Assembly (NCBI GenBank): GCA_003225075.1 | Contig: QIAP01000062.1 | Location: 1 to 35,232, forward strand | From: Acidobacteriota bacterium | GTDB lineage: Bacteria > Acidobacteriota > Terriglobia > Terriglobales > Acidobacteriaceae | Reading direction: 5' to 3' | DNA: 35,232 bases | Shown here: positions 11,781-18,164 of the stretch, piece by piece | How the letters are laid out: each line of letters starts with the position of its first letter | Position numbering within the stretch: the stretch's first letter is position 1 | Notes under the pieces: model-generated | Told to the model about the DNA's origin: nothing | What the model saw: the letters and a program-made list of their open reading frames with translations, nothing else | Databases searched by the model: none | Made by a program: the position numbers and the translations under genes

Positions 11781-12233
11781 ATGGAAGTAATTCTAAAAGA
11801 AGATGTAGCCAAGCTCGGCTCGCGCGGCGACGTGGTCAAGGTTGCCGAAGGTTACGGTCGAAATTTTCTTCTTCCCAAGAAATTGGCCATTGAAGCTTCG
11901 GCGGCCAATAAATCTGTCATAGAGCAGATGAAAGCAGCCTCAGTGCGCCGTTCTGCCAAGGAGAAAGCCAGCGCTGAGGAGTTGGCGAAACAGTTTGAGG
12001 GCGTCGAAGTCTCATTCCTTCGCCGAGCCGGCGAACATGACCAACTCTTCGGCTCAGTCACTTCCGGCGATATTGCCGACGCGCTGGCGAAGAAGGGCCT
12101 TAACGTGGACCGTCGTAAGATTCAAATTCACGAGTCCATCAAAACTCTGGGCGAGTTTACGGTTGCGATAAGACTCCACCGAGACGTTACCACTCACCTG
12201 AAGGTGCTCATCCAAAAGGAAGCTGCGGAATAG
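11781..12233 (+). CDS. rplI: 50S ribosomal protein L9
   Basis: L9 is a two-domain protein at the base of the L1 stalk. The N-terminal M-E-V-I-L-K-E-D-V-x-x-L-G-x-x-G-D-V-V-x-V and Y-G-R-N-F-L-L-P motifs are exact family signatures, followed by the long connecting helix and the C-terminal RNA-binding domain (L-F-G-S-V-T). The product is 150 residues. ATG 11781 was chosen over an upstream in-frame start at 11742 because it begins at the universal M-x-V-I-L and follows GGAG. It is the last gene of the ribosomal cluster; a small terminator-like hairpin follows. Confidence 0.97.
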   Translation: MEVILKEDVAKLGSRGDVVKVAEGYGRNFLLPKKLAIEASAANKSVIEQMKAASVRRSAKEKASAEELAKQFEGVEVSFLRRAGEHDQLFGSVTSGDIADALAKKGLNVDRRKIQIHESIKTLGEFTVAIRLHRDVTTHLKVLIQKEAAE

Positions 12234-12257
12234 TTCTTCCAACTTAGAAGCAGCACT

Positions 12258-12281
12258 GATCGCCGGTTCGCGATCTTGTTC
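12258..12281 (+). terminator. Weak terminator-like hairpin after rplI
   Basis: GATCGC (12258-12263) and GCGATC (12270-12275) form a six-pair stem with a CGGTTC loop, followed by TTGTT. It sits 25 bp beyond the rplI stop. The stem is short and the T-run imperfect, so termination may be partial or Rho-assisted. Confidence 0.35.
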
Positions 12282-12368
12282 CAGGCGATAAACTGGCTTG
12301 GGGCGTATAAACCATAGTTTCGACACTATTTAACAAATTATTTACCAGTTATTGACATTCTTCTCCTG

Positions 12369-12399
12369 TTGAGCAAGAAGCTTGCCAAACTCCTATAAT
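12369..12399 (+). promoter_or_regulatory. Candidate promoter ahead of the sigma-factor gene
   Basis: A perfect TATAAT lies at 12394-12399, with TTGAGC at 12369-12374 as a possible -35 element at a long 19-bp spacing. A perfect TTGACA also occurs at 12352-12357 but is 36 bp from the TATAAT, too far to pair with it. The gap between rplI and the sigma gene (12234-12605) otherwise holds only the hairpin above and a dispensable-looking in-frame extension. No ECF-type autoregulatory promoter was recognised. Confidence 0.4.
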
Positions 12400-12605
12400 C
12401 TTGCTCACGGTTCTGTCCCTGTCACGTCCATAACTATGCAACCTGAAAGCAAGCCCAGGTTGCCGAGGTTTGCTGAGGACAAGGCAAAATGCCGGCCGAT
12501 GCGTGGGCTTTACCCTTTGCGGTTGGCAAGTGTTCCAATCCTGACGCGGCAAGCGCCGGGAAGGGGCGAGACAGCGGAACCCAGGACCCCATCGCGCGGG
12601 GCCAC

Positions 12606-13202
12606 ATGGCTGGGCACAGTCTAAACCGCATAGATGACACGATGCTGATCCGCGAGGCGCAGCACGGGAATCGTGCTGCGTTCGAAGAACTGGTGCGCCA
12701 CTATGACAATGCCGTGCTCCGCCTGGCTCTCCACCTTACCGGATCGGAACATGACGCTCAGGATATTTACCAGGAAGCATTTTTGAAGGCGTACAAGAAT
12801 GTTGGAAGTTTTCGGTTCGAGTGCTCCTTTTATACCTGGATCTACCGTATTGTGACCAATCTATGCCTGGATCACCTGCGGAAGAGAAACGTGCGCAAAG
12901 AAGATGCGCCGGTGACGGTTGACTCCTCAGGCGAGGAGTACAACTTACTGGAGCAGGTGCCGGACGGGCGAGCCGCAGCCAATCCTGAACGCGATCTTAT
13001 GCGGCGCGAATTAGGTGGTCGCATCAACCGCGCACTGGATCGCCTTACGCCCCGCGAGCGCATGGTTTTTGAGTTGAAGCATTATCAGGGTTTGAAGTTG
13101 CGCACTGCGGGCGAGATTTTGCACACGACTGAAGAGACAGCCAAAAATACTTTGTTCCGCGCCACCCAAAAATTGCGCGGAGCTTTATCGGATATGCGAT
13201 GA
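12606..13202 (+). CDS. ECF RNA polymerase sigma factor (RpoE-like)
   Basis: A group-4 sigma factor. Region 2 runs from L-V-R-H-Y-D-N-A-V to L-D-H-L-R-K-R and includes the D-A-x-D-I-Y-Q-E-A-F-L-K-A-Y segment for core and -10 binding. Region 4 (I-N-R-A-L-D-R-L-T-P-R-E-R-x-V-F through the T-A-E-E-T-A-K-N-type helix-turn-helix) binds the -35 element. The start is uncertain. ATG 12606 gives 198 residues; an in-frame ATG at 12489 follows AGGAC/AAGG but would add 39 residues unlike sigma factors; ATG 12642 is also possible. The anti-sigma gene follows 51 bp downstream, so the pair is likely co-regulated. Confidence 0.92.
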   Translation: MAGHSLNRIDDTMLIREAQHGNRAAFEELVRHYDNAVLRLALHLTGSEHDAQDIYQEAFLKAYKNVGSFRFECSFYTWIYRIVTNLCLDHLRKRNVRKEDAPVTVDSSGEEYNLLEQVPDGRAAANPERDLMRRELGGRINRALDRLTPRERMVFELKHYQGLKLRTAGEILHTTEETAKNTLFRATQKLRGALSDMR

Positions 13203-13253
13203 GAGCGAAAAATTTGATTTCAGGTTTCTACATGTCCCCAATGGGGTGCAATT

Positions 13254-14204
13254 ATGAAATGTGACTGGGTAAAGCAAAACGTCGTGCTCTACATTTATAA
13301 CGAGCTGCCCGACGACGCCCGTTATGAACTGGAGCAGCACCTGGGACGGTGTCCCGAGTGTGCCGCCGAGCTAAAGGCCGCACGCAAGTTCAACATGGAG
13401 ATTTCACAGTTTTCAGTTGAGGAACCGGCCGCAAACCTGCTGACGGCCTCTCGTATGCGCCTTCAGGAGTTGCTCGAAACCGCCGAGCAAGGCGGTTTCT
13501 GGCAACGGTTCACATTCGAGCCGGCAAACTGGCTGCGCCAAGTCCGATTTTCTCCCGCACTGGCCGCGGCCATTTTTATTGTGGGCTTCGCTGGCGGGAT
13601 CGGTGCAACTTACAAAATAACGTCCGGGAACAACCCGGGAAGTATCTCCACTGCAAGCAGACCGCAAGGTCCCGTCCCCGCACCTGCCGAATCTTCCATT
13701 ACGGGTATCCGCTCCATCAATCAGGATCCAGGTTCCAACCAGATCAACATCAAGTACGACACCGTTTCTACGCAGGAAACGCATGGTTCGCTGAACGATC
13801 AGCGCATCCAGCAGTTGCTGCTGTTTGCCGCGCGCAACAATTACAACTCGGGTGTGCGCATGGATTCGGTGGACCTCCTGACTCAGAAGCCTGATGACAA
13901 TCGAGTGCGCGAGGCCCTGATTTACGCCCTGCGCTATGACTCCAACCCAGGGGTGCGACTCAAGGCTCTGGAAGGCTTGGGATCATTTGTGAAGGACGAC
14001 GTTCGAGTCCGGGACTCTGTACTGGCAGCTTTGATGAACGATGCGAACCCCGGCGTGCGCACCCAGGCGCTCCACCTGCTCGAGCCCGTAAAGGCTGACA
14101 GCAGCGTGCGGAGTGTGCTACAGCGGCTGGCGGAAAACGATCAGAACCAGTACATCCGGTCTCAGGCGCGCACTGTGATGGCGCAGTTGCCGGAGATTGA
14201 TTGA
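13254..14204 (+). CDS. Zinc-binding anti-sigma factor with C-terminal HEAT repeats
   Basis: The first 40 residues form an anti-sigma zinc (ZAS) domain: C3 plus H29, C33 and C36 in the H-x3-C-x2-C pattern. ZAS domains bind and hold ECF sigma factors at the membrane. A hydrophobic helix at about residues 100-120 is the likely single TM segment, followed by a Pro/Ser linker. Residues about 175-312 are four or so HEAT-like repeats (recurring 'N-P-G-V-R-x-x-A-L-x-x-L' helices), predicted to lie outside the cytoplasmic membrane. HEAT repeats bind proteins, so they may sense an envelope ligand. The cognate sigma is presumably the preceding gene. Confidence 0.88.
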   Translation: MKCDWVKQNVVLYIYNELPDDARYELEQHLGRCPECAAELKAARKFNMEISQFSVEEPAANLLTASRMRLQELLETAEQGGFWQRFTFEPANWLRQVRFSPALAAAIFIVGFAGGIGATYKITSGNNPGSISTASRPQGPVPAPAESSITGIRSINQDPGSNQINIKYDTVSTQETHGSLNDQRIQQLLLFAARNNYNSGVRMDSVDLLTQKPDDNRVREALIYALRYDSNPGVRLKALEGLGSFVKDDVRVRDSVLAALMNDANPGVRTQALHLLEPVKADSSVRSVLQRLAENDQNQYIRSQARTVMAQLPEID

Positions 14205-14245
14205 GTCGTAAAAACAAGGTTTTAGAGGAGATATAACAGAAGTAC

Positions 14246-15448
14246 ATGTCGAAAACTTTATTAAGGTTCGCAGGGACGTTCGCGCTGCTGGCGTCTCTTA
14301 TTTCTCTGGCCTCGGCACAGCAGCAAAACCGGATTTATCGCGAAGGCGGCAACTGGGCCGAAGAGATTACCGGCTCGTTGACGCCCGCGAAGAACCTGCG
14401 GGTCAAGGTGGATGTCGGATCCGTCCGTATCGTAGGGGGTTCACAGCCGGTCATCAATTACGTGATTCGCAATCGTGCTTACAGTTCATCTGAGGACAAA
14501 GCCCGCCGCGAGTTTGATTCATACAAGATCAGCGCCTATGTCCGGGGAGATACCGCCTGGATCGTCGGCGACTGGCAAGGCGGCCGTCCCAAGAGATTTT
14601 CCGGCGAGTTCGTGATCAATGTCCCCCGCGAGATGGAGTGGGTGAAGGTGGAAACCGAGGGCGGCAGCGTGTCCACAACGGGTATCGCAGGACGAGCCGA
14701 TGCTGAGAGCGGTGGCGGCAGCATTCATGTGGATGATATCGGTGGCGCAATTAATGCCGAAACCGGCGGCGGATCCATTGATGTTGGCAACGTCGGCGGT
14801 GACCTCAACCTCCACACCGGCGGGGGCAGCATCGAGATTCGCGCGGCGAAAGGCAAGATCAACGCTGAGAGCGGCGGCGGTAGCGTCGTCCTGATTTCCG
14901 GACTGCAAGGCGCGGTGCTTGAAACCGGGGGTGGCAGTATAGAAGTCAAAAAGTGTACCGGAAGTGTGAAAGCTACCACCGGCGGCGGCAGCATCGATCT
15001 TGGGGACATCGGCGGCCCGGCAGAAATTGAAACTGGCGGCGGCAGCATTCGGCTCGGCTCGGCCAAAGGTTTTGTGCACGCAGACACCGGCGGAGGCAGC
15101 ATCGAATTGAATGGGGTCCCAGGGGCCCGGGCCGAAACCGGCGCGGGCGGGATCATCGCCAAGTTTATTGCCTCAACTGGGGAGCGTACAGATTCCGTGC
15201 TTGAAACATCAGCCGGGGATATTACCGTATTTCTGGCTGCTGATCTGGCGATCACAATTCGCGCCAGCGTCGAGTTGGCCAATGGTCACCAGATTCGCTC
15301 CGACTTCTCTGACATTCACGTGACCACCGAGGGTGGGGAATATGGACCGAAGACGGTTACCGCGGAAGGGCGGTTGAACGGCGGCGGACCGGTGTTGAAA
15401 GTGCGTACTACGACTGGCGACATTACATTTCGCCGTGCCAGCCGGTAA
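14246..15448 (+). CDS. Secreted DUF4097-like beta-repeat protein
   Basis: The 400-residue product starts with a signal peptide (cleavage near A-S-A-Q-Q). The N-terminal third resembles DUF4097/adhesin-like proteins (L-R-V-K-V-D-V-G-S-V-R-I). Residues about 137-310 consist of some nine tandem 18-residue units of the form G-G-G-S-I-x-V-x-x-I-G-G-x-I-x-A-E-T, which would stack as a parallel beta-helix or solenoid. The C-terminal strand block ends T-T-G-D-I-T-F. A GAGGAG lies 14 nt ahead of ATG 14246, rather far. The position between anti-sigma and PDZ genes suggests an envelope-stress role; the function is not known. Confidence 0.8.
   Translation: MSKTLLRFAGTFALLASLISLASAQQQNRIYREGGNWAEEITGSLTPAKNLRVKVDVGSVRIVGGSQPVINYVIRNRAYSSSEDKARREFDSYKISAYVRGDTAWIVGDWQGGRPKRFSGEFVINVPREMEWVKVETEGGSVSTTGIAGRADAESGGGSIHVDDIGGAINAETGGGSIDVGNVGGDLNLHTGGGSIEIRAAKGKINAESGGGSVVLISGLQGAVLETGGGSIEVKKCTGSVKATTGGGSIDLGDIGGPAEIETGGGSIRLGSAKGFVHADTGGGSIELNGVPGARAETGAGGIIAKFIASTGERTDSVLETSAGDITVFLAADLAITIRASVELANGHQIRSDFSDIHVTTEGGEYGPKTVTAEGRLNGGGPVLKVRTTTGDITFRRASR
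14711..15147 (+). repeat. Tandem 54-bp coding repeats (G-G-G-S-I units)
   Basis: Units begin at 14711, 14765, 14819, 14873 and so on, at a 54-bp period, each opening with a GGCGGCGGCAGC-like block. The last unit is one codon short. Codons differ between units, so the array is diverged and not a recent expansion. The repeats also create long spurious open frames on the opposite strand. Confidence 0.85.
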
Positions 15449-15495
15449 AACTCAGTAGGACGATTTTTCATTAAATCTGCATGGAGGGATAGACC

Positions 15496-16644
15496 ATGCG
15501 CATGCGCATCATCACTGCAACCATAATTTTGCTGACCATTTCGGTGGCGGCTGAGAGTTCCAACGTTGGTCTTGGGGAGGCCTACGGCTACGGCGAAGAA
15601 ACTGGTACCGGATCCTATCTTGGGGTTGATATCAGCGATGTTACAAGTGAACGCCTTGCTGCTCTCAAACTAAAAGACGAGCGCGGGGTTGAAGTCACCA
15701 TGGTGGATCAGGATGCTCCCGCCGGCAAAGCTGGGCTCAAGGAACACGACGTTATTCTCACGATGAACGGGACCAACGTCGAAAGTGGTGCGCAACTGCG
15801 ACGCATGATTCACGAAACTCGGCCGGGACGCGTCGTAAGCTTCGGCATCAGTCGTGACGGCCAGCCTCTTACCATCAAGGTTCAGCTTGCCGATAAGGGC
15901 AAGGCCTTTGCGAAGAATTTTCCGCACGATTTCAAATTCGAAGTGCCACCCATGCCTGTCATCCCCGAATTCGATCTCCCCATGTCAGTTGTGGTGGTGC
16001 ACAGTTCCATGCGGAGCGGCTTGGTTGTGGAAAATCTTTCACCACAACTAGGGGAGTTTTTCGGAGCCAAAAACGGCAAGGGAGTGCTGGTGCGCTCGGT
16101 TGATAAGGGAAGCGTGGCGGCTAAAGCTGGTTTCCGCGCCGGTGATGTAATTGTCCGGGTGAACGAGCAAGATGTGCATGATACCAGCGACTTTACCCAT
16201 GCTCTGCGGTCGCGCAGCAATAATTCCGTAAACATCGCAATCATTCGAGAAAAGAAAGAGCAGTCTCTTACGTTGTCACTCCCGCAACCTAAGGATTCGG
16301 GCAACATTTTCGAGGAGAGCTTTGATGTGCCCGATTTCCATGCGGAAACCCGCATCGAGCTTAGCGAGATGCAATCCGAACTGGCGCACTTGAGACCTCA
16401 GTTGGAACTGGCTTCACAGGAGGCGGAGCGTGCGGTGGAAGCGGTGCGTCCCCAGATAGACGAGGCTCGCCGTGAACTCTGCACTCATCGTGACGACCTC
16501 AAAAAGGCGCAGAAAGAAATTCGCCAGCGGGCGCGAGAAATGCGTCAGCAAGTACAGGAACAGCAGCACCGGTTGCGGGAGCGGCAGAAGAAATACCAGG
16601 AACAAATCCAGCATGAATTGAACGGGGACTGGATCGAAATTTAA
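15496..16644 (+). CDS. Secreted protein with two PDZ domains and C-terminal coiled coil
   Basis: The 382-residue product has an N-terminal signal-like helix. PDZ 1 spans about residues 40-135 (Y-L-G-V-D-I then P-A-G-K-A-G-L-K-E-H-D-V-I-L) and PDZ 2 about 170-260 (S-V-A-A-K-A-G-F-R-A-G-D-V-I-V). Residues about 290-375 are a long Glu/Gln/Arg-rich coiled coil. No trypsin-like protease domain is present, so this is not a DegP/DegS enzyme; it more likely binds C-termini of envelope proteins. GGAGGG lies 7 nt before ATG 15496. It follows the DUF4097-like gene after 47 bp and shares a TTAA overlap with the convergent cyclase gene. Confidence 0.88.
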   Translation: MRMRIITATIILLTISVAAESSNVGLGEAYGYGEETGTGSYLGVDISDVTSERLAALKLKDERGVEVTMVDQDAPAGKAGLKEHDVILTMNGTNVESGAQLRRMIHETRPGRVVSFGISRDGQPLTIKVQLADKGKAFAKNFPHDFKFEVPPMPVIPEFDLPMSVVVVHSSMRSGLVVENLSPQLGEFFGAKNGKGVLVRSVDKGSVAAKAGFRAGDVIVRVNEQDVHDTSDFTHALRSRSNNSVNIAIIREKKEQSLTLSLPQPKDSGNIFEESFDVPDFHAETRIELSEMQSELAHLRPQLELASQEAERAVEAVRPQIDEARRELCTHRDDLKKAQKEIRQRAREMRQQVQEQQHRLRERQKKYQEQIQHELNGDWIEI

Positions 16645-18164
16645 ACCAGCGTCTTGCCGGTAATCCTACCGGCCACGCTATGAGCCGAGCTCTGCGTGCT
16701 GGCCGGACCCTGGATGACCAGGTTCCGCCCAGCCTGCTTGGCCGCATACAAACCAGCGTCCGCCGCCTTCACCAGTTCATCCCGGGTCGTTCCGTCTTCA
16801 GGGTAGGTAGCAGCGCCAGCGCTGATACTGACCGGACGTGGAACCCCAGGGAACTGCCAGGTTTCCACCAGTCGGCGTAATTTCTCTGCGACACCCAATG
16901 CTTGTTCCGCGTTGGTCTGAGATAGCAGAATGGCGAATTCTTCGCCACCATAGCGGCATACCACGTCCATCTTTCGCACTTGCTGATGGAAGAGCGAAGA
17001 GACCTGCCTTAGCACCTCATCCCCGAGTAAGTGTCCGAATTCGTCGTTGAGTTTTTTGAAATTGTCGATGTCAACCATGATTACGGCCAACCCAGTGCCA
17101 TATCGGCGGGCGCGCTCGATTTCTTCCGAAATACGCAGTTCAAAAAAACGCCGGTTGAAGATTCCTGTCAAACCATCGAGATATGCCAATTGTTTGACGC
17201 GCTCTACGTAGTGGGCGTTCTGAATGGCAGTAGCGCAAATGTCCGCGACCGATTCTAGAGATTGCGTGTCACCAACATGAAATGCGCCGGTTTCGGCGCT
17301 GTCCAGAACCAGAACCCCCAACGTCTGACCAAAGGAAACCAGGGGAATGCACATGCGTGATGCGGTCTCGGCGAAGAAGCCGACGTATTCCGAGATAACT
17401 CGCACGTCATGCTCAATGACGGTTTTTCCTGCCGCCAAAGCGCGCCCCCACAGCCCCGCGCTTGACGGCAGTCGTCCGCCCTCGAGAATGCGAGGCGTCA
17501 AAGTTCCGTGATGCGCGCGCAATATCAGGTCATCTTCCTCCCGCAGCAGGACCGATACGTGATTCACATGGAATGCTTCTTGTATTAGCGAGCAGACCTT
17601 TGCCAGCAGTTCCTTGACATCCAGCATGGCCGTGGTTTGCTGGGCGATAGCATTGATGGCTTCGAGTTGCTGCGCTCTGTGCCGCTCCAGCGAATACAGC
17701 CGCGCGTTTTGCAGAGCCATGGAAGCTTGAGTTGAGAACAGGGTCAACAGGTCAATGGTCTCTTTGTCGAAATGATCGAGGTTTTCGCTCTGGCAATCGA
17801 GCACGCCGACCACTTCATCTCGCACCATCAGCGGGATTGCCAGCTCCGAGCGGGTGGCCTTCGCCGAGGAAACATAGCGCGCATCTTTGCTTACGTCCGG
17901 AGCGTAAAGCGGCCGCTTCTGCTTGGCTGCCGTGCCGGTAATGCCGTGGCCGATCGGCATGTGGATCTTGTCGTGACCCTCGTCCCAGCCGATCTGGCTG
18001 CGTACACAGAGCTCCTGCGTCTCTTTGTCCAGAAGAAGGATGGCTACGTTCTGCAAATGAAAGTAATCCCGCGCAATCACCAGGATGCGTTGCAAGACCT
18101 CATCCAAGTCGAAGGTCGAGAGTACCGCCTGGCTGGCGTCGTATAGGAGGGCGATTTTTTGCAT
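16641..18164 (-). CDS. Diguanylate cyclase with two GAF domains
   Basis: A soluble 507-residue signalling protein. GAF 1 lies at about residues 20-160 and GAF 2 at about 185-325; these are small-molecule or redox sensors. The GGDEF domain begins at L-D-G-L-T-G-I-F-N-R (about 330) and carries an intact active site R-Y-G-G-E-E-F (about 405), so it should make cyclic-di-GMP. The allosteric I-site R-K-M-D sits five residues before G-G-E-E-F, indicating product inhibition. TACAAT lies at 18177-18182, read on the minus strand, 12 nt before the ATG, giving a very short leader. Stop codons overlap those of the PDZ gene. Confidence 0.95.
   Translation of the reverse strand: MQKIALLYDASQAVLSTFDLDEVLQRILVIARDYFHLQNVAILLLDKETQELCVRSQIGWDEGHDKIHMPIGHGITGTAAKQKRPLYAPDVSKDARYVSSAKATRSELAIPLMVRDEVVGVLDCQSENLDHFDKETIDLLTLFSTQASMALQNARLYSLERHRAQQLEAINAIAQQTTAMLDVKELLAKVCSLIQEAFHVNHVSVLLREEDDLILRAHHGTLTPRILEGGRLPSSAGLWGRALAAGKTVIEHDVRVISEYVGFFAETASRMCIPLVSFGQTLGVLVLDSAETGAFHVGDTQSLESVADICATAIQNAHYVERVKQLAYLDGLTGIFNRRFFELRISEEIERARRYGTGLAVIMVDIDNFKKLNDEFGHLLGDEVLRQVSSLFHQQVRKMDVVCRYGGEEFAILLSQTNAEQALGVAEKLRRLVETWQFPGVPRPVSISAGAATYPEDGTTRDELVKAADAGLYAAKQAGRNLVIQGPASTQSSAHSVAGRITGKTLV

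Follow-up and report, generated by a model that had tools for sequence, protein, structure and literature searches.

The rpoE operon of Escherichia coli is arranged in the order sigma factor, membrane anti-sigma factor and periplasmic protein. Acidobacteria are abundant in soils, but not much is known of how they signal envelope stress. As described for the Escherichia coli system in PMC4598750, RseB binds RseA and inhibits cleavage by DegS. According to the same source, SigW-RsiW of Bacillus subtilis combines a transmembrane ZAS anti-sigma factor with an envelope signal and with site-1 and site-2 proteases. For proteins of the Toastrack (DUF4097) type, PMC11237479 describes pairings with PspC, LiaI-LiaF-TM, two-component systems or DUF2089 proteins and argues for a place inside the cell; in some of these contexts a sigma factor is linked.

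The locus considered here lies in a window of 35,232 nucleotides, by which the whole stretch of DNA that was analysed is meant. The original prediction reported four same-strand genes with short gaps and read them as a candidate envelope-stress system. The run is confirmed overall, with all four genes on one strand and gaps of 51, 41 and 47 bp, and the envelope-stress interpretation is partly supported. A full-text literature search, whose scope left out the main ECF classification paper, found no description of the four-gene system. The genes are as follows.

12489..13202, + strand: ECF sigma factor with an N-terminal extension (MPADAWALPFAVG...), from PF04542 and PF08281
13254..14204, + strand: ZAS anti-sigma factor, from zf-HC2, HEAT_2, the ZAS motif, topology, AlphaFold, Foldseek and invariant residues
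14246..15448, + strand: secreted DUF4097/Toastrack-type beta-solenoid, from PF13349 (below cut-off), AlphaFold, the Foldseek match 4qrk and repeat spacing
15496..16644, + strand: secreted protein, two PDZ domains of HtrA-like type followed by a helical C-terminal part, from PF13180 (twice) and a partial TIGR02037 match

The best reading of this module is that it acts in the manner of RpoE-RseA-RseB, though with different components. That it is an autoregulated pair of ECF sigma factor and transmembrane ZAS anti-sigma factor watching the envelope in Acidobacteriota is held with moderate confidence.

The first gene was correctly recognised as an ECF sigma factor, as both region 2 (PF04542) and region 4 (PF08281) are present above their cut-offs and TIGR02937 scores 129.4 bits against a cut-off of 42.9. 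Its start, originally put at 12606, is probably the ATG at 12489, because an in-frame extension beginning MPAD or similar is kept in 26/43 loci; the extension is absent in the other 17, mostly more distant ones. The second gene carries zf-HC2 at residues 3-37 as well as HEAT_2. Its zinc finger residues C3, H29, C33 and C36 belong to the pattern [C/H]...HxxxCxxC, the described ZAS zinc motif (PMC4598750), which is found in 49 of 50 homologues and is invariant in 21 diverse sequences. A single transmembrane helix at about residues 99-117, a predicted N-inside orientation and a sigma gene adjoining upstream in 45/45 genomes agree with a ZAS assignment. In the AlphaFold model, eight helices between residues 183 and 311 form four HEAT pairs, the first with low confidence (block pLDDT 47-61) and the other three mostly at 72-90. 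Foldseek gave HEAT-like alphaRep proteins as best matches of this part (best E 5.6e-3), with none at E <= 0.001. Pfam, topology and AlphaFold thus bear out the initial description of a ZAS protein with one transmembrane helix and about four HEAT-like repeats.

The gene run is widely conserved. A strong anti-sigma match was present in 45 of the 61 genomes searched, each with the sigma gene just upstream, and the order sigma, anti-sigma, DUF4097, PDZ was intact in 31 of these 45. Moreover, a profile search of the phylum gave matches at E <= 1e-15 in 83/396 genomes. From the 36 matches outside the class, 20 loci were fetched, 19 of which have adjacent sigma, anti-sigma and DUF4097 genes. Co-location in related genomes, proposed earlier as a check, therefore holds, with the same order and strand retained at the level of family, class and phylum, which excludes chance alone. 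Each accessory gene is missing in whole lineages, DUF4097 from the locus in 10 of 35 family f1 genomes having the sigma/anti-sigma pair and the PDZ gene from 14 of the 20 outside-class loci; thus neither is always needed at the locus. Genome G006 no longer has sigma, anti-sigma or DUF4097 genes at the locus, where only a broken remnant of the PDZ gene is left.

Two elements were recognised upstream of the operon.

12394..12399, + strand: TATAAT, a possible -10 box of housekeeping type closely preceding the ECF-type site
12403..12430, + strand: candidate autoregulatory ECF promoter, GCTCAC, 16-nt spacer, CGTCCA, a conserved motif

In 37 of 43 in-class loci the operon has the pattern GCTnAC-N16-CGTC upstream of it (35 with N16, 2 with N17), against 0/43 for the reversed control; four of the six loci without it belong to f1. 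Outside the class it occurs in 6/20 loci, all of family f27, and among the remaining 14 some have merely similar-looking sites by eye. Given this conservation, the operon is probably autoregulated, and the site would be read by the operon's own sigma factor. It was found in 0/7 loci of a sigma paralogue 60-66% identical; other ECF sigma factors could read similar sites. A conserved site before the first gene also fits a single transcript for the four genes. In 22 of 41 aligned regions, TATAAT occurs no more than 25 nt ahead of the ECF-type site. A scan of 12230-16800 for sigma-70-type promoters and terminators gave no excess over shuffles, and no sigma-70-type promoter was scored at 12394..12399.

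The shared sigma-dependent motif that had been proposed now has a good candidate, which also occurs before other secreted-protein genes. In the module's own genome, GCTnAC-N16-CGTCYA gave 8 matches vs 10 for the reversed control, an absence of enrichment on which a genome-wide regulon reading from the motif alone was rejected. A stricter motif searched in 37 genomes gave 41 matches in 23 f1 genomes vs 17 controls; without the 14 that are the operon itself, the comparison is 27 vs 17. Targets were therefore considered only if the same downstream family recurred. Of the 31 non-operon matches, 29 were retrieved or inspected, and downstream proteins were compared all-against-all. The leading family is a 129-residue small secreted protein, with the operon's ECF-type site before the gene in 17 of 29 copies, the other 12 lacking it; when the six copies through which the family was found are set aside, the site remains in 11/23, vs about 0.0115 expected per copy. 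DUF2911 proteins are perhaps targets as well (site in 4/6 orthologues, three of these having led to the family). A 167-residue secreted protein is a weak candidate, its site occurring in only 2/5 copies, both the ones that led to it. MacB/FtsX-like permeases lie near some motif matches. No claim is made for a structured RNA in the leader of the small secreted gene, since six leaders compared with Rfam gave no known RNA and covariation was weak.

The third protein had been described as a secreted protein of 18-residue G-G-G-S-I repeats, and eight GGGS(I/V) units at a spacing of exactly 18 residues agree with this. Its PF13349 (DUF4097) score of 21.1 bits lies just below the cut-off of 22.9. AlphaFold predicts a beta-solenoid (pLDDT 89.9, pTM 0.84), for which Foldseek gave 4qrk as the top PDB match and 4opw lower down, with low TM-scores (0.18-0.42). 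Both structures are named for the Toastrack fold in PMC11237479. The signal peptides of this protein and of the fourth are by-eye readings. From its position and co-conservation, we infer that the solenoid would hold the RseB role and is the best candidate for binding the HEAT part directly. A serious competitor, given somewhat less than an even chance, is that the DUF4097 and PDZ proteins are outputs only, that is, envelope-protecting effectors, while the HEAT domain senses an unrelated lipid, peptidoglycan fragment or misfolded protein. The ten f1 genomes that retain the HEAT anti-sigma factor without DUF4097 at the locus, and the many outside-class loci without PDZ, speak for effectors, as do the other likely targets, which are also secreted proteins. 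However, a position directly after the anti-sigma gene in 19/20 outside-class loci is tighter than an effector needs, and the large beta-sheet surfaces of the DUF4097 domain have been proposed as docking platforms (PMC11237479).

The fourth protein has PF13180 PDZ in two stretches, in line with the two PDZ domains originally noted, and a partial TIGR02037 match in two stretches, below its cut-off; for the coiled coil that was also noted originally, there are weak Pfam matches to helical families. An intact HtrA was rejected, as Pfam matched no trypsin or other protease domain. Its C-terminus (WxEI, xDI), suggested as a PDZ ligand by near relatives, was dropped because it ends in I in only 14/42 sequences. 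The statement that no DegS-like protease is encoded in the run stands by Pfam; the conclusion that another route would release the sigma factor is not forced. Two HtrA-type proteins (Trypsin_2 with two PDZ domains) and one RseP-type protein (M50 with two PDZ domains) are encoded elsewhere in the genome, so the sigma factor may still be released by regulated proteolysis. Proteolysis resembling that of RseA and RsiW, in which an HtrA-type enzyme cleaves the periplasmic part, RseP makes its cut within the membrane and the PDZ protein competes for the same C-termini as adaptor or decoy, is given a slightly smaller chance than the effector view. Besides these enzymes, it draws on the PDZ domains of the operon, which match parts of HtrA/DegS models. 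Such proteases are, however, common in bacteria, are encoded here on contigs other than the operon's, and the 14 outside-class loci without the PDZ gene retain sigma, anti-sigma and DUF4097.

The HEAT part had been placed outside the membrane, a cytoplasmic position being named as evidence against the whole idea. It is predicted to lie in the periplasm, because K/R residues are more numerous before the transmembrane helix than after it in 42/50 homologues. The best 19-residue hydrophobicity window exceeds 1.6 in 43/50, and a second such window occurs in 0/50. A cytoplasmic HEAT domain sensing an internal signal is very improbable: many HEAT proteins are intracellular, and 8/50 homologues show no K/R excess and 7/50 no window above 1.6, but holding the sigma factor requires a cytoplasmic ZAS domain, and a single transmembrane helix is seen. 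Even less credible is that the four genes lie side by side with no functional link, for which the housekeeping-like TATAAT could be cited, given one conserved site upstream and the order and strand kept across the phylum.

In the preferred reading of an RpoE-RseA-RseB-like module, the ZAS domain would at rest hold the sigma factor at the inner membrane, judging from the families. The periplasmic HEAT domain would read an envelope signal, with the exported beta-solenoid as its partner, standing where RseB stands in rpoE-rseA-rseB. Under stress, the anti-sigma factor would let go by shape change or by cleavage through HtrA- and RseP-type proteases encoded elsewhere. The free sigma factor would then act at GCTnAC-N16-CGTC sites before its own operon and before a small number of other genes, in particular that of the 129-residue secreted protein and perhaps those of DUF2911 proteins. 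More secreted proteins would result, and more anti-sigma factor would end the response. A bolder version is less likely than not, namely that HEAT anti-sigma factors with exported DUF4097 proteins form a distinct phylum-wide sensor class, the solenoid being an RseB-like co-inhibitor docked on HEAT and the sigma factor driving a small secreted regulon, one member of which also has another ECF-type site of a different kind. With a promoter and a target predicted and the sensor architecture defined, the question is open to direct experimental test.

Compared with known systems, the fourth protein resembles HtrA, DegP and DegS in its PDZ domains, and differs in having no matched protease domain. 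SigW-RsiW likewise has a transmembrane ZAS anti-sigma factor; to our knowledge, RsiW lacks a HEAT array, no DUF4097 and PDZ genes come after it, and the SigW promoter type differs from the candidate promoter of this module. Toastrack operons of Psp/Lia also set a DUF4097-type beta-helix beside a transcription regulator, whereas the protein here has an apparent signal peptide and its partner would be a HEAT anti-sigma factor; no PspA, PspC or LiaI-LiaF-TM was matched in a scan of seven proteins, four from the run and three from flanking genes. RpoE-RseA-RseB-RseC shares the order of sigma factor, membrane anti-sigma factor and periplasmic protein. Pfam and NCBIfam searches with the second and third genes gave no RseA or RseB family at E <= 0.1, and unlike that system the present one has a zinc-finger anti-sigma domain, a HEAT part and a beta-solenoid third protein. 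If the reading is true, a HEAT array with a beta-solenoid would be an added sensor design among transmembrane anti-sigma factors.

The four same-strand genes of the original prediction, with gaps of 51, 41 and 47 bp, are borne out. Gene 1 matches ECF sigma family profiles and is followed by the genes for a ZAS/HEAT anti-sigma, an apparently secreted DUF4097-type protein and an apparently secreted two-PDZ protein. The window spans an entire contig of its genome. Upstream of the operon are frames matching rplI (Pfam) and rpsF and rpsR (by eye), and its far end abuts a convergent GAF-GGDEF gene. The PDZ and GAF-GGDEF genes overlap by 4 bases at their ends (window 16641-16644), and the GGDEF gene remains beside the operon in several near relatives. 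The sigma start, first placed at 12606, is most likely ATG 12489 instead, judging from an in-frame extension with an MPAD-like beginning that is kept in 26/43 loci. A variable-length linker separates this extension from 12606, and the 17 loci without the extension are mostly the more distant ones.

Window 12403-12430: GCTnAC-N16-CGTC site upstream of the sigma gene
Window 12489-12605: sigma N-terminal extension MPAD.wA.pf.VG and variable linker

Each operon protein was searched against the genome itself and 60 relatives. The anti-sigma matched at E <= 0.001 in 51 of these 61 genomes, of which six weak ones (E 2.4e-8 or worse; G003, G037, G045, G048, G056, G058) were excluded; in G045, just a DUF4097-PDZ piece is seen at a contig end. 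The proposed synteny is conserved, as the sigma gene lies directly upstream of the anti-sigma gene in 45/45 loci (two are fragments at contig edges). All four genes keep their order in 31 of the 45 (the PDZ frame is split in one of these, and another has an additional DUF4097 frame), while nine loci carry sigma-anti-sigma-PDZ, three sigma-anti-sigma-DUF4097 and two the sigma and anti-sigma pair alone, the last two groups each including one locus at a contig end. A gene counted as missing is one not found at the locus itself; many genomes have weaker DUF4097-like matches elsewhere. Seven loci from named relatives (Acidobacteria/Terriglobia assemblies; anti-sigma identity 66-85%) were left out of this count owing to possible identity with counted genomes. 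Across the phylum, a profile built from 21 anti-sigmas matched 83 of 396 genomes at E <= 1e-15, 36 of them outside the class. Twenty of these 36 loci, mostly better scoring, were fetched and the other 16 left out. The sigma-anti-sigma-DUF4097 arrangement is present in 19 of the 20, five of which add PDZ; in the remaining locus sigma, DUF4097 and PDZ are present but no anti-sigma frame was seen between them, though the profile matched there. Because of these counts, sigma, HEAT anti-sigma and DUF4097 appear to form a widespread core to which some groups add PDZ, and in part of the within-class family f1 the locus has lost DUF4097. In one relative, G006, the interval from rplI to the GAF-GGDEF gene lacks sigma, anti-sigma and DUF4097 alike; protein searches found no anti-sigma or close sigma elsewhere in that genome.

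L079 4440-5530: G006 remnant locus, PDZ remnant with in-frame stops

This single assembly hints that the PDZ gene is not kept without the rest of the operon.

The anti-sigma has the expected ZAS character, with a zinc finger of the zf-HC2 family as well as HEAT_2 repeats. Across 21 diverse sequences, C3, H29, C33 and C36 never vary. Among 50 homologues, a set that takes in six of the seven named-relative loci and may repeat genomes already counted, the ZAS pattern is present in 49, 43 have a 19-residue hydrophobic window scoring above 1.6, none has a second one, and K/R are more numerous before the window than after it in 42. The predicted topology agrees with the single TM helix proposed. AlphaFold modelling of eight sequences gave a low mean pLDDT (57.6) and placed eight helices at 183 to 311, which make up four HEAT pairs (pLDDT 47-61 in the first, mostly 72-90 in the other three). 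Foldseek ranks HEAT-like alphaRep proteins closest (E 5.6e-3 at best, probability 1.00), with no match at E <= 0.001. Gene 3 contains eight GGGS(I/V) units spaced exactly 18 residues apart, in line with the 18-residue repeats described before, and its DUF4097 match falls just under the Pfam cut-off. Its structure is confidently modelled as the beta-solenoid first suggested. The top PDB match is 4qrk (E 5.4e-7), with 4opw lower in the list and low TM-scores (0.18-0.42); both are named Toastrack folds in PMC11237479. Profile matches support two PDZ domains in gene 4, and family-profile searches matched no protease domain there.

The GCTnAC-N16-CGTC site occurs in 37 of 43 within-class loci with real upstream sequence (35 N16, 2 N17), and the reversed motif in 0/43. 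Four of the six loci without it belong to f1 and two to other families, the latter having the near variants GTTAC-N16-CGTC and GTGAC-N16-CGTC (by eye). Outside the class it is found in 6/20 loci, all of family f27; the other 14 lack it, some showing GTAAC...CGTC by eye. ECF sigmas commonly recognise their own promoters, and the operon would therefore be autoregulated through this conserved site. A second sigma, 60-66% identical to that of the window, is present in 7/61 genomes, and the motif is absent upstream in 7/7 of its loci. No HEAT/ZAS-type anti-sigma lies beside it in the loci fetched; in L081 it immediately follows a response-regulator-like frame (by eye).

L073 5218-5889: second sigma
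L077 4537-5208: second sigma
L081 3073-3735: second sigma

The GCTnAC-N16-CGTC site is a good candidate for the shared motif that had been proposed: it recurs before secreted-protein genes, but the motif alone shows no excess in the own genome (8 matches against 10 controls). A stricter motif gave 41 matches against 17 controls in 23 f1 genomes, with the operon accounting for 14 of the 41; inspection of the others revealed recurring neighbour genes. The main candidate encodes a 129-residue secreted protein (P0005) with no Pfam match and with relatives in 27/61 genomes (43 matches listed). Thirty copies were fetched, and among the 29 with >= 500 nt upstream the site precedes 17 (16/26 genomes), the reversed site none. 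The family was first noticed through the sites of six copies; without these the site remains in 11/23, with about 0.0115 expected per copy. Additionally, the site precedes 4/6 close orthologues of a DUF2911 protein, three of which led to the family, and 2/5 copies of a 167-residue secreted protein, both discovery copies. In f1, the 129-residue protein occurs in 24/25 genomes with DUF4097 in the operon and 0/10 without, which shared ancestry may explain. In 16/29 copies of the 129-residue gene (reversed, 0/29) the leader also carries a second ECF-type site of another kind, G(A/G)AAC(T/C)-N15..18-CGTA, a pattern composed after inspection of these leaders; the gene may be a common target of two ECF sigmas.

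L136 1888-2257, - strand: leader with the second ECF-type site (orthologues in L137-L150, L157, L163)
L136 about 1970-2100, - strand: conserved leader element of the 129-residue gene (alignment A6)

The conserved element reads GGGACTG.CTCAC..CGGTTTGGCGGCCCAGGTGAG..CAATCCC..ACCCCG..CATTGTAGG; it had no Rfam match in six loci searched, and its covariation is weak (RNAalifold). In a few genomes, promoter-like sites also lie close to MacB/FtsX-like permease genes (named by eye; L105, L108, L134, L135), which could be chance.

The listings of full-text searches on HEAT with anti-sigma, and on DUF4097 with an anti-sigma or sigma factor, showed no paper that describes this combination. In PMC11237479, some Toastrack gene neighbourhoods include a linked sigma factor, but together with DUF2089 proteins; HEAT repeats go unmentioned in the passages retrieved from PMC7406223. 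Acidobacterial ECF270, of unknown mechanism, is listed in PMC8999054. The window's sigma may already be a numbered group of the 2021 ECF re-classification.

The best explanation, favoured with moderate confidence, is an autoregulated ECF sigma/transmembrane ZAS anti-sigma module watching the envelope; this confidence was lowered slightly because of the discovery copies in the target families and the outside-class loci without the motif. Gene order, its conservation and the conserved site are direct observations, while topology and folds are predictions. The HEAT domain would be the sensor, the DUF4097 protein its partner, and the sigma would recognise the GCTnAC-N16-CGTC site. Proteolysis is a possible release route because the own genome encodes two Trypsin_2 plus two-PDZ proteins and one RseP-type protein; direct release is just as plausible. 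The operon order of sigma, anti-sigma and secreted protein is like that of rpoE-rseA-rseB, which runs sigma, anti-sigma, periplasmic protein. According to PMC4598750, RseB bound to RseA inhibits cleavage by DegS, and the binding of LPS intermediates to RseB lifts this inhibition.
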